In this document: one piece after another, positions 54,736 to 58,085 of the stretch
Numbering within the stretch: position 1 is the stretch's first letter
Layout: each line of letters starts with the position of its first letter
From: Nocardioides seonyuensis
GTDB lineage: Bacteria > Actinomycetota > Actinomycetes > Propionibacteriales > Nocardioidaceae
Reading direction: 5' to 3'
Length of the DNA: 64,000 bases
NCBI RefSeq assembly: GCF_004683965.1
Contig: NZ_CP038436.1
Span: forward strand, 3,596,001-3,660,000
The notes under the pieces: generated by a model
Told to the model about the DNA's origin: nothing
Database searches by the model: none
Seen by the model: the letters and a program-made list of their open reading frames with translations, nothing else
Program-made: the position numbers and the translations under genes

Positions 54736-55566
54736 TCAGGTGAGGGCGGCGGCAGGGCCGTCGGGCCGCTGCATGCGGCCGGCGATGACGTCGTCGGCGA
54801 TGGCCGCGACCTCCTGCTCGGGCATGCGGGTGCCACCGTCGGCGGTGATCACGTGCACCACCGGGAAGATGCGCCTGGTCAGGTCGGGGCCACCGGTCGC
54901 GGAGTCGTCGTCGGCAGCGTCGTAGAGCGCCTGGATCACGGCGGTCACGCACTCGCGCGAGGAGAGGTCGTCGCGGTAGAGCTTCTTCAGCGAGCCTCGT
55001 GCGAACAGCGAGCCGGAGCCCACGGAGTGGAACGCAGTCTCCTCGTAGCGGCCGCCGGTCACGTCGTAGCTGAAGATCCGCCCCAGGCCGGCGTTGTGGT
55101 CGAAGCCCGCGAACAGGGGCACCACCGAGAGGCCCTGCATGGCCAGGCCGAGGTTGGCACGGATCAGGGCAGCGAGACGGTTGGACTTGCCGTCCATCGA
55201 GAGCGTCGTGCCCTCGATCTTCTCGTAGTGCTCGAGCTCGGTCTGGAACAGCCGCACCATCTCGACGGCCAGGCCCGCGGTGCCGGCGATGCCGACGACG
55301 GAGAACTCGTCGGCCGGGAAGACCTTCTCGATGTCGCGTTGGGCGATGATGTTGCCCATCGTGGCGCGGCGGTCACCCGCCATCACCACTCCCCCGTCGA
55401 ACGTCGCCGCGACGATGGTCGTGGCATGCGGGGCCAGGTCGCCGGCATGTCCGGGGGGCAGCGCACGCCGCGACGGCAGGAGCTCGGGCGCCTGGGCGCC
55501 GAGGAACTCGCTGAACGACGTCGAGCCGGGCATCAGGTAGGCAGCAGGGAGTCTGGGTTCGACCAT
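54736..55566 (-). CDS. prcB: 20S proteasome beta subunit PrcB
   Basis: A 276-residue beta subunit with a propeptide of 48 residues; autocleavage before Thr49 ([13 protein letters not shown]) frees the catalytic threonine. [24 protein letters not shown] and [17 protein letters not shown] are conserved. It forms the inner rings carrying peptidase activity. It begins 4 bases after the pup stop and ends 19 bases before prcA, an operon. Confidence 0.96.
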
Positions 55567-55570
55567 GCGA

Positions 55571-55768
55571 CTACTGGCCGCCCTTCTGGATGAAGGACTT
55601 CACGAAGTCCTCCGCATTGGTCTCGAGCACGTCGTCGATCTCGTCGAGGATCGCGTCGACGTCGTCGTCGAGGAGTTCCTTGCGCTCGGCCACGTCGCTC
55701 TCGGTGACCTCCTCGGTCACCTCCTCGGACTGCGACGACTTCCGCGGCTGCTTCTGTTCCTGGGCCAT
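55571..55768 (-). CDS. pup: Prokaryotic ubiquitin-like protein Pup
   Basis: A 65-residue Pup: a Gln/Lys/Glu-rich, disordered N-terminus, an acidic helical stretch ([17 protein letters not shown]) that binds ARC, and the C-terminal IQKGGQ. The terminal Gln must be deamidated to Glu by Dop before PafA can use it. It is followed by prcB at 4 bases. Upstream, instead of dop, lies an array of repeats 32 bases away. Confidence 0.97.
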
Positions 55769-55800
55769 GCCACGACCCTATAGCCCCAGCCCCCACCCGA

Positions 55801-56028
55801 TGGTCGAGGAAGGACGAAGTCCTGTCACGAGACCACGCGAAGCCCGCTGGTCGAGGAAGGACGAAGTCCTGTCACGAGACCACGCGAAGCCCCGCTGGTC
55901 GAGGAAGGACGAAGTCCTGTCACGAGACCACGCGTAGCCCCGCTGGTCGAGGAAGGACGAAGTCCTGTCACGAGACCACGCGTAGCCCCGCTGGTCGAGG
56001 AAGGACGAAGTCCTGTCACGAGACCACG
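55801..56028 (+). repeat. Tandem array of five hairpin repeats (left array)
   Basis: Five near-identical 37-bp copies start at 55801, 55848, 55896, 55944 and 55992, with 10-11-bp spacers (period 47-48). Each begins TGGTCGAGGA and ends TGTCACGAGACCACG, with an internal hairpin AGGAC-GAA-GTCCT (55811-55823 in copy 1). Spacers are near-identical too, so this is not CRISPR. The last copy ends at the 3' end of the GIY-YIG gene. Confidence 0.93.
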
Positions 56029-56030
56029 GG

Positions 56031-56336
56031 TCACGTCACTCGCCGCGCCCGTCGGTCGTGCCAGCTTCGGCTGGCGAGGGAGCTCAACAAGTCTGTGTCA
56101 CCTGAGATCAGTGCCTCGCGCTTGGCACGCGACCATCCCTGGATCCGCTTCTCCATCGCATAGGCCTCGTCCACCCGGTCGTAGTCGGCATGCCAGACCA
56201 GTTCGACCGGACGGCGATGCCGGGTGTAGGCCGCCCCGACGCCTTGGTTGTGCTCGCTCATCCGTCGCTCGAGGTCCCAGGTGCTGCCGACGTAGTAGCT
56301 GGAGTCCGAGCACCTGACGATGTAGACGTGCGGCAT
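56031..56336 (-). CDS. GIY-YIG nuclease family protein
   Basis: A 101-residue single-domain protein of the UPF0213/GIY-YIG type. VYIVRCSDSSYYVGSTWDLE at residues 4-23 holds both halves of the GIY-YIG motif, with Arg in ERRMSEHNQG and the Asn-Gln downstream, then AYTRHRRPVELVWHADYDR and a Lys/Arg-rich end (HDRRARRVT). Such proteins cut DNA; some small members act on single-stranded DNA. Its stop lies 3 bases from the left repeat array and its start 66 bases from the right one. It separates dop from pup. Role in repeat spread is inference. Confidence 0.88.
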   Translation of the reverse strand: MPHVYIVRCSDSSYYVGSTWDLERRMSEHNQGVGAAYTRHRRPVELVWHADYDRVDEAYAMEKRIQGWSRAKREALISGDTDLLSSLASRSWHDRRARRVT

Positions 56337-56401
56337 GCAGTGAGCATGACTCGCGTCGACCGCCGCCGACAGGCCGCGGAAAAGATCTGTGGATGAAGGA
56401 T

Positions 56402-56561
56402 GGTCTCGTGACGGGACTCCGTCCCTCCTCGACCAGCGAGGTCGGTCTCGTGACGGGACTTCGTCCCTCCTCGACCAGCGAGGTAGGTCTCGTGACGGGA
56501 CTTCGTCCCTCCTCGACCAGCGAGGTCGGTCGCGTGACGCGACTGCGTCCCTCCTCGACCG
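56402..56561 (-). repeat. Tandem array of four hairpin repeats (right array, inverted)
   Basis: Four 34-bp copies at 56402, 56444, 56486 and 56528 (period 42), reading GGTCTCGTGAC ... CTCGACCA on the plus strand, i.e. the left repeat in reverse. The hairpin core here is GGGAC-GAA-GTCCC (minus strand), with both outer bases changed relative to the left array. The last copy is degenerate. It ends 19 bases before the dop stop. Confidence 0.92.
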
Positions 56562-56579
56562 GCGGCTGCTGCGCGCGTG

Positions 56580-58085
56580 TCAGCGGGTCAGCGCGGCGAC
56601 GAGCTGCTCGGCCGTGTCGCAGCGATCCATGAGCTCACCCACGTGGGCCCTGCTGCCGCGCAGCGGATCCACGGTGGGCACTCGCTGCAGGGAGGTCTGG
56701 CCGGGCAGGTCGAAGATCACTGAGTCCCACGAGGCCGCGGCGACGGAGTCGGCGTACTTCTCGAGGCAACGGCCGCGGAAGTAGGCACGCGTGTCTGTCG
56801 GGGGCTCGTGCATCGCTGCCTCGACCGTGGCGTCGTCGAGCAGGCGATCCACGCGGCCCGAGGCGACCAGCCGCTGGTAGAGCCCCTTGTCGGGGCGCAG
56901 GTCGGCGTACTGCAGGTCGATGAGGTGCAGCTTGGCGTCGTCCCAGTCCAGGCCGTCACGGTCGCGGTACTGCGTCAGCAGTTTGAGCTTGGCCACCCAG
57001 TCGAGCTCGCGGGCACACTCCATCGGGTCCCGCTCCAGGCGGGTCAGCACGGACTCCCACCGCTCGAGCACGTCGACGGTCTGGTCGTCGGCATCGGACC
57101 CGAGCCGGTCCTCGACGTGCTTGCGGGCGAGGTCGAGGTACTCGAGCTGGAGCTGGACGGCGGTCATCCGGCGCCCGTCACGCAGGGTGAGAAGGTGCTT
57201 GAGGGTCGGGTCGTGCGACACCGCGCGCAACGCGCTGACGGGCCCGTCGACGGCAAGGTCGCTGCCGAGGAACCCGTCCTCGATCATGGCGAGGACGAGC
57301 GCGGTCGTCCCGACCTTGAGGTAGGTCGAGATCTCGGAGAGGTTGGCGTCCCCGATGATCACGTGCAGCCGCCGGTAGACCTCCGGGTCGGCGTGCGGCT
57401 CGTCGCGGGTGTTGATGATGGGTCGCTTGAGCGTCGTCTCCAACCCCACCTCCACCTCGAAGTAGTCGGCGCGCTGGCTGACCTGGAAGCCGTGCTCGCG
57501 GCCGTCCTGCCCGATGCCGACGCGACCCGCCCCGCACACGACCTGCCGGGAGACGAAGAACGGCGTCAGGTGGCGCACGATCTCCGCGAATGGGGTCGAC
57601 CGACGCATCAGGTAGTTCTCGTGGGCGCCGTAGGAGGCGCCCTTGTTGTCGGTGTTGTTCTTGTAGAGCAGGATCGGCGCCGCCTGGGCCTGCGAGGCCA
57701 TCCGCGAGGCGTCGAGCATGACCTGCTCGCCCGCCTTCTCCCAGCGCACGACGTCCAGCGGGGTGGTGACCTCCGGCGAGGAGTACTCCGGGTGGGCGTG
57801 GTCGACGTAGAGCCGGGCACCGTTGGTCAGGATGACGTTGGCCAGCCCGAGGTCCTCGTCGGTGAGCTGACTGGCGTCGGCGACCTGCCTGGACATGTCG
57901 AAGCCGCGCGCGTCACGCAGCGGCGACTCCTCCTCGAAGTCCCAGCGTGCGCGTCGCGCGGTCGTGGTGGCCGAGGCGTAGGCGTTGACGACCTGGGAGG
58001 ACGCGACCATCGGGTTGGCCCCCGGCTGGCCCTGTACCGAGATGCCGTACTCGATCTCGGTGCCCATCACTCGACGTACGCTCAT
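56580..58085 (-). CDS. dop: Pup deamidase/depupylase Dop
   Basis: A 501-residue PafA paralogue. [33 protein letters not shown] with Asp95 (the catalytic Asp position of mycobacterial Dop), [20 protein letters not shown] and [20 protein letters not shown] are visible. It converts the Pup C-terminal Gln to Glu and removes Pup from substrates. The ATG at 58085 or MGTEIEYG six codons later may be the start. Unusually separated from pup by the repeat module. Confidence 0.96.

Follow-up and report, generated by a model that had tools for sequence, protein, structure and literature searches.

A block of about 770 bases, composed of five repeats, a GIY-YIG gene and four inverted repeats, occupies the dop–pup gap of the Nocardioides seonyuensis genome (3.97 Mb, single contig). 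It lies in the 64,000-nucleotide stretch of DNA analysed here, referred to below as the window. The 101-aa open reading frame matched the Pfam GIY-YIG family PF01541 with 68 bits (cut-off 22.6), Pfam reported GIY-YIG-type domains only, and residues Y5, Y15, G17, R25 and E62 were invariant across 22 aligned sequences. PF01541 had three matches in this genome, the two others scoring 32 and 28 bits and lying in open reading frames that encode 617 and 97 aa. Values of dN/dS between 0.02 and 0.19 across 11 homolog pairs, one including the gene of the window, indicated that selection preserves a functional protein.

The gene ends 2 bases from the 3' array (55796–56028), a direct repeat with a period of 48, 4.9 copies and 98% matches, and starts 65 bases from the 5' array (56402–56564), which has the opposite orientation, a period of 42, 3.9 copies and 94% matches. 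The first-pass annotation had described five repeats 3' and four inverted repeats 5' of a GIY-YIG gene of this length, and this layout was confirmed. Both arrays belong to one family, most arm pairs being 84–95% complementary over 37–41 nt, and the GGTYTCG end of the repeats points toward the gene from both sides. The stems are self-complementary yet differ between the arrays (AGGAC/GTCCT in the 3' array, GGGAC/GTCCC in the 5' array), which suggests that each array was built up by tandem duplication from a separate founder unit.

Table 1 Features of the dop–pup interval (window positions) and the DUF222/HNH genes elsewhere in the genome (positions on contig G000:C1)
Feature	Position	Strand	Basis or remark
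pup gene, one edge of insertion site	55571..55768	-	PF05639, 89 bits
3'-side hairpin repeat copy 1, GGTCTCGTGACAGGACTTCGTCCTTCCTCGACC	55802..55834	-	pattern search
3'-side hairpin repeat copy 2	55849..55881	-	pattern search
3'-side hairpin repeat copy 3	55897..55929	-	pattern search
3'-side hairpin repeat copy 4	55945..55977	-	pattern search
3'-side hairpin repeat copy 5	55993..56025	-	pattern search
GIY-YIG nuclease gene, 101 aa	56031..56336	-	PF01541; stop 56031-56033, ATG 56334-56336
5'-side hairpin repeat copy 1	56402..56434	+	GGGAC/GTCCC-kind stem, one C in loop
5'-side hairpin repeat copy 2	56444..56476	+	pattern search
5'-side hairpin repeat copy 3	56486..56518	+	pattern search
5'-side hairpin repeat copy 4, degenerate	56528..56560	+	3 mismatches to searched repeat; outside strict count
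Pup_ligase/Dop-family gene, other edge of insertion site	56580..58085	-	PF03136, 642 bits
Six DUF222/HNH genes	287054-288709, 765876-767466, 1022113-1023815, 1053170-1054774, 3702327-3703895, 3018349-3019803		loci L014, L024, L029, L031, L032

A genome-wide search with the strict pattern GGTYTCGWGAC-N4-30-CCTCRACC found the repeat at 79 places (36 forward and 43 reverse), and the reversed control of the pattern found none. The foot of the repeat is GGTYTCG...CTCRACC, with neither a GTAG nor a CGTC tag. Comparison of loci revealed a constant frame, GGTY-TCG ... CTC-RACC, enclosing class signatures, of which WGAC..(C/T)TC (class A), ACAC..CTG (B), ATAC..CTA (T) and WGGC..CAC (C) are the main ones and ACTC..CGG, ACGA..CTG, ACGC, ACAA/ACAG and TCTC..TCG are rarer; these classes, as well as the wider core, were defined after some of the loci had been viewed. 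Watson-Crick pairing linked the second base of the signature to the base just ahead of CTC; among the distinct repeats of lengths 33, 35 and 36 it held in 88, 95 and 94%, respectively, with G:C, C:G and T:A all occurring, and for the outer Y:R pair it held in 94, 98 and 97%. Over all 42 repeats of length 35, 95.0% of the cells of the proposed stem were paired, and the covariation score of the stem was 0.371, against 0.131 in shuffled sets (reached in 0/500) and 0.019–0.070 in slid controls; an analysis of 34 of these repeats gave a result concordant with the full set. Single-strand DNA folding of five repeats was not clearly better than that of shuffled sequences (z −0.01 to −1.84). The predicted hairpin is carried by covariation, not by folding energies.

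Bracketing of nuclease homologs in Nocardioides and beyond

A GIY-YIG homolog (E 0.001 or better) was found in 111 of the 196 Nocardioides genomes and none was detected in the other 85; the matches listed from this search included none weaker than about 1.4e-27, and further copies per genome are under-sampled. Outward repeats with the general core lay within 350 bp on both sides of 76 of the 90 nuclease loci from Nocardioides, on one side of 11 and on neither side of 3. The opposite outcome, a nuclease standing mostly without flanking repeats, had been named in the first-pass annotation as what would count against a partnership. The signature was identical on the two sides at 57 of these 90 loci, and the median distance between the matched stretch and the start of the first repeat was 70 bases. 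The repeats are oriented outward on either flank, irrespective of the strand of the gene.

The same arrangement was recovered by a pattern-free test, in which one 300-bp flank was aligned locally with the reverse-complemented opposite flank and a score of 36 was taken as the threshold. Scores of at least 36 were obtained at 24 of 30 loci, at 58 of the 79 usable among 80 named relatives (the best 80 of 568), and at 48 of the 59 usable among 60 loci fetched for listed matches that had no locus yet, a set that excludes two matches close to the end of a contig as well as the weakest ones. The three sets overlap, and their 170 loci reduce to 147 proteins, among which one or more duplicates remain (L144 and L202, identity 1.00). 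In windows 600–900 bp away the corresponding counts were 0/29, 0/71 and 0/57, and the best score of 20 shuffles per locus never reached 36. Chance bracketing was rejected by these distant-window and shuffle controls.

Among the named relatives, 58 of the 69 usable actinobacterial loci (of the 80 named) passed the inverted-flank test, and none of 10 loci from Spirochaetota, Fibrobacterota, Pseudomonadota, Bacteroidota and Chloroflexota did so. All ten of these loci nevertheless had one or more outward TTCG-N...N'-CTC cores no farther than 150 bp away, compared with 0.019 per far 150-bp window, although this core was chosen after the ten loci had been viewed and four of them are from Fibrobacter. 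They exhibited no outward preference of the core (14 outward and 15 inward), and both sides carried it in only 3 of the 10. With the loose core, 70 named actinobacterial loci had 140 outward and 42 inward occurrences, and at least one outward in 57 of the 70, against a high background of 0.19 per far window.

Nine of the 30 plasmid records with homologs were read. Three homologs of 47–55% identity, two from Methylobacterium and one from Sphingomonas, gave inverted-flank scores of 103, 70 and 33, the last being below the threshold, and six of 32–40% identity gave no inverted flank match (score at most 20). Two of the three homologs in the latter group with a gene table adjoin genes of the yabA-rsmI and rnc-era type. 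This difference suggests that bracketing is a trait of one branch of small GIY-YIG proteins, with distant UPF0213-like relatives falling outside it. On the Methylobacterium (L310, L311) and Sphingomonas (L312) plasmids, the GIY-YIG genes lie near CCTTCGAGG...CACCTCAGG or CTTCGACTTCGCTCAG repeats, in which the same TTCGA...CTCA core was recognised by eye, here in Alphaproteobacteria.

Repeat abundance, repeat class and occupancy of insertion sites

The comparison proposed at first pass, of repeat number with presence of the nuclease, had a mixed outcome. The medians were 54 repeats per genome where the nuclease was found (n=111) and 3 where it was not (n=85; Mann-Whitney p=1.3e-13, uncorrected for phylogeny), but at least 10 repeats were present in 90 of the 111 nuclease-bearing genomes and also in 32 of the 85 nuclease-free ones. 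Fewer than 10 were counted in 21 of the 111, by a pattern that does not cover class C; this would account for six of these 21, which carry a known class C nuclease, but not for the rest. The 32 nuclease-free Nocardioides genomes rich in repeats include G006, G041, G109, G178 and G181, and their partner may have been lost or missed, or another enzyme may act there.

Class-specific searches in 64 chosen genomes of the 196 revealed enrichment of each main class where the nuclease has that class, both relative to genomes with a nuclease of another class (p=4e-8 for C, 1e-4 for A, 1.7e-3 for T and 1.3e-4 for B) and relative to nuclease-free genomes (p between 5e-6 and 8e-3 for all four classes). 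The commonest repeat class was that of the nuclease in 34 of 42 genomes (mean of 11.8 and maximum of 26 in 100,000 shuffles); among the eight misses, five genomes (G189, G119, G166, G022 and G164) have further nuclease matches beyond those read. Different repeat classes were associated with each nuclease in 13 of the 15 genomes in which at least two nucleases were read, for example C, A and B in G099 and A and C in G120; of these 13, G053, G094 and G098 each include a gene with repeats on one side only, and G177 includes one with differing signatures on its two sides. Both genes of G172 had class C with a different W base, and G091, likewise with at least two nucleases read, had no repeats.

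When mapped on the nuclease tree, the repeat class required 31 changes, compared with 60–76 in 200 shuffles (118 labelled proteins of 147, the other 29 being without a clear class). Between neighbours less than 60% identical, protein similarity predicted class no better than chance (22/88, chance 0.23), which suggests that specificity switches often. The partnership between nuclease and repeats put forward at first pass is well supported by the bracketing, by repeat abundance, by class matching and by the separate classes of individual nucleases within genomes; the further idea of that annotation, that the nuclease may spread or maintain the repeats, is a prediction.

The block was also said to separate two genes, dop and pup, that are normally adjacent, and the relatives bear this out. 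pup was present in 29 of the 30 genomes examined, with a Pup_ligase/Dop-family gene beside it in all 29, and in 27 of these the gap contained neither gene nor repeat (21–477 bp; no core repeat in any of the 27). The spacing is 815 bp in N. seonyuensis, 618 bp in G005, 21–165 bp in the remaining 17 of the 19 Nocardioides genomes examined, and 92–477 bp in 10 genomes outside the genus. The gap of G005 (L212) holds a frame-broken GIY-YIG copy and one repeat, oriented opposite to the gene of the window, and G129 has a complete GIY-YIG gene, 64% identical, at the same place and also in the opposite orientation. The pup-side repeat is of the TTC type in all three genomes, so the interior may have flipped or been exchanged between standing arms.

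Elsewhere, the insertion sites are scattered. The closest homolog of the window's gene among the matches listed (78%, in G074) does not share its flanks, and both flanks were common to only 43 of 10,731 homolog pairs among the 147 proteins; the gene was flipped in 15 of these 43. Replacement of one class by another at a single site was found in L048 (T) and L066 (C), L103 (T) and L166 (A), L043 (A) and L152 (B), and L177 (B) and L191 (C). At the level of the sequences, the bracketing, the cognate class, the covarying stem, the link between abundance and presence, the empty sites and the same-site swaps and flips all stand. Because related genes in many soil bacteria are each bracketed by a matching version of the repeat, enzyme and repeat would seem to form a pair that moves and diverges jointly.

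Possible roles of the nuclease, the repeats and the DUF222/HNH genes

The explanation that we regard as probable is a REPtron-like selfish pair, in which the GIY-YIG nuclease would recognise and nick the resident class of hairpin repeat and both repeats and cassette would spread thereby. The cassette would consist of a repeat, the nuclease gene and an inverted repeat, and the nuclease, by analogy with TnpA-REP, would read and cut its own class, recognising it through the constant TTCG/CTC core and the adjoining class-specific bases; the proposed specificity is drawn from the co-variation of nuclease and repeat class. The substrate nicked would most likely be single-stranded or extruded hairpin DNA. 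We know of no strand-transfer step in GIY-YIG enzymes, so spread would run through recombination and repair at the nicked repeats, with recombination or gene conversion producing new copies of them or exchanging them. Solo repeats would thereby multiply and arrays expand, and whole cassettes would land at, swap at or flip at chromosomal sites, giving one gene of each kind alongside many non-autonomous repeats, like RAYT systems. Binding, single-strand cleavage and cleavage-driven spread are steps that we infer.

The nuclease might instead serve the host, as the Neisseria nuclease Ssn reportedly does, by cutting incoming or replicating single-stranded DNA at the repeats and so tuning natural transformation or recombination, with repeat spread as a by-product. 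Such a role would predict the same anatomy and would fit the purifying selection on the gene seen in the 11 pairs, but the scatter of locations, the class swaps and the 85 genomes with no detected homolog look selfish rather than housekeeping, and we consider it unlikely.

A different candidate for the user and spreader of the repeats is the DUF222/HNH gene, of the 13E12 type, with the GIY-YIG gene being one more repeat-flanked passenger. The repeat family does cluster at these genes as well (PF02720, 37.6 bits; HNH PF01844 matched weakly, E 0.055, below its cut-off). In N. seonyuensis, where 18 listed of 26 DUF222 matches were analysed, 27 of the 79 repeats lay inside or at most 300 bp from the 18 genes, where their area would predict 0.7. 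Of the 62 repeat clusters, 21 touched one of these genes (random mean 0.57, maximum 5 in 20,000). A 5' repeat was present at 10 of the 18, with the GGT end toward the gene each time. Likewise, 22 of 40 DUF222 genes fetched from other genomes (L270–L309) had outward 5' repeats, including 4 of 7 in G178, in which no GIY-YIG homolog was found; 11 of the 40 had also or only inward 5' repeats and 6 had outward 3' repeats. In G079 and G034, whose nucleases read are of class C, the repeats at DUF222 genes are of class C. However, G018, G036 and G014 have 66, 58 and 34 DUF222 matches (one gene can yield two) and only 1, 2 and 6 repeats, which indicates that DUF222 genes alone do not bring repeats. Repeat class, moreover, goes with the class of the GIY-YIG nuclease. 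DUF222 genes as the sole driver are disfavoured on these two grounds, and the passenger reading is improbable.

Six DUF222/HNH genes of N. seonyuensis constitute a repeat-bounded multi-copy unit of about 1.6 kb (Table 1). Five are 88–90% identical to the sixth, five of the six are bounded at either end by outward members of the same repeat family, and an exact in-frame repeat is present in five of the six.

The bracket could also be passive, if some other enzyme spreads repeats that tend to flank any dispensable small gene. The flanking of DUF222 genes and the repeat-rich nuclease-free genomes are compatible with this, but it would leave unexplained why 13 of 15 multi-nuclease genomes have a different class at each nuclease and why most homologs read are bracketed, with no such flanks at 600–900 bp. 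As for the other enzyme, the Y1 transposase family was surveyed and is absent from 195 of the 196 genomes. We regard a passive bracket as very improbable. Last, the repeats might act on local genes as regulatory sites, RNA hairpins or transcription terminators, in keeping with their hairpin form and intergenic position, but this reading is hardly credible, since the region 55500–56700 contained no terminator-like site and no Rfam match and the repeats are directed outward on either flank for genes of both strands and are dispersed genome-wide.

Beyond the selfish pair itself, we advance tentatively, and with less than even confidence, a broader proposal: that these repeats form a third great superfamily of REP hairpins, with a TTCG-N...N'-CTC core and a dedicated GIY-YIG nuclease, in which a matched 'code word' has switched repeatedly, several distinct and independently moving pairs may share a genome, and the range covers Actinomycetota and at least some members of five other phyla. 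If true, the GIY-YIG nuclease would suggest a missing partner for repeats said to lack one. Matched nuclease–repeat pairs, often two or three per genome, make specificity, repeat spread and repeat-driven genome change testable, and could yield hairpin- or strand-specific nucleases with various specificities.

Comparison with known repeat and nuclease systems

Bacterial genomes commonly contain short hairpin repeats, and those of the GTAG kind have RAYTs as proposed mobilising enzymes. According to passages of PMC2817692, RAYT genes are always flanked by two inverted REPs, and passages of PMC3116915 describe them as single-copy genes with separate REP flavours. The present system resembles the RAYT/REP pairs of those passages (REPtrons, TnpA-REP; PMC2817692) in placing a single-copy nuclease-type gene between inverted hairpin repeats of a dispersed family, and in having several genes per genome, each with its own repeat flavour (PMC3116915, PMC2817692). 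It differs in its enzyme, a GIY-YIG nuclease in place of an HUH tyrosine transposase, and in its TTCG/CTC core, in place of the GTAG tag. The cassette also varies in place and is swapped, whereas orthologous RAYTs keep their position, as far as passages of PMC2817692 describe. A RAYT as the mover of the present repeats was rejected, because the Y1/HUH domain PF01797 that serves as the RAYT criterion was found in 1 of the 196 genomes, which is not N. seonyuensis. The CGTC-tagged REPs treated in passages of Di Nocera 2013 (PMC3733652) are likewise abundant hairpin repeats outside the RAYT world, with a different tag and stem; the text of that paper does not contain the word Actinobacteria. A literature search found no description of a GIY-YIG/hairpin-repeat pair.

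Among GIY-YIG proteins, the best PDB profile matches were two entries named UPF0213, 1zg2 (E 2e-21) and 1ywl (E 8e-17), and the small UPF0213/YhbQ/YazA proteins are related in sequence. Unlike the UPF0213/YazA type, the genes described here have no stable neighbourhood and are flanked by repeats, which the plasmid homologs of 32–40% identity do not have in inverted form. Free-standing GIY-YIG homing endonucleases share with the present gene an insertion at a position that relatives leave unoccupied, but the latter has its own repeats on both sides, many sites and a short protein with only GIY-YIG-type domains. A parallel in kind may be Neisseria Ssn, which is said to be a small GIY-YIG site-specific single-strand nuclease with an abundant cognate repeat, many homologs and a range of cognate sequences. 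It has in common with the present system a small GIY-YIG protein and a cognate repeat in many genomic copies; the repeat sequence and the host phylum are different, and single-strand cutting is predicted in the present case. If that description of Ssn is right, the system would represent a large actinobacterial branch of the Ssn kind, to which class switching, genomes with several pairs and movement of the cassette would be added.
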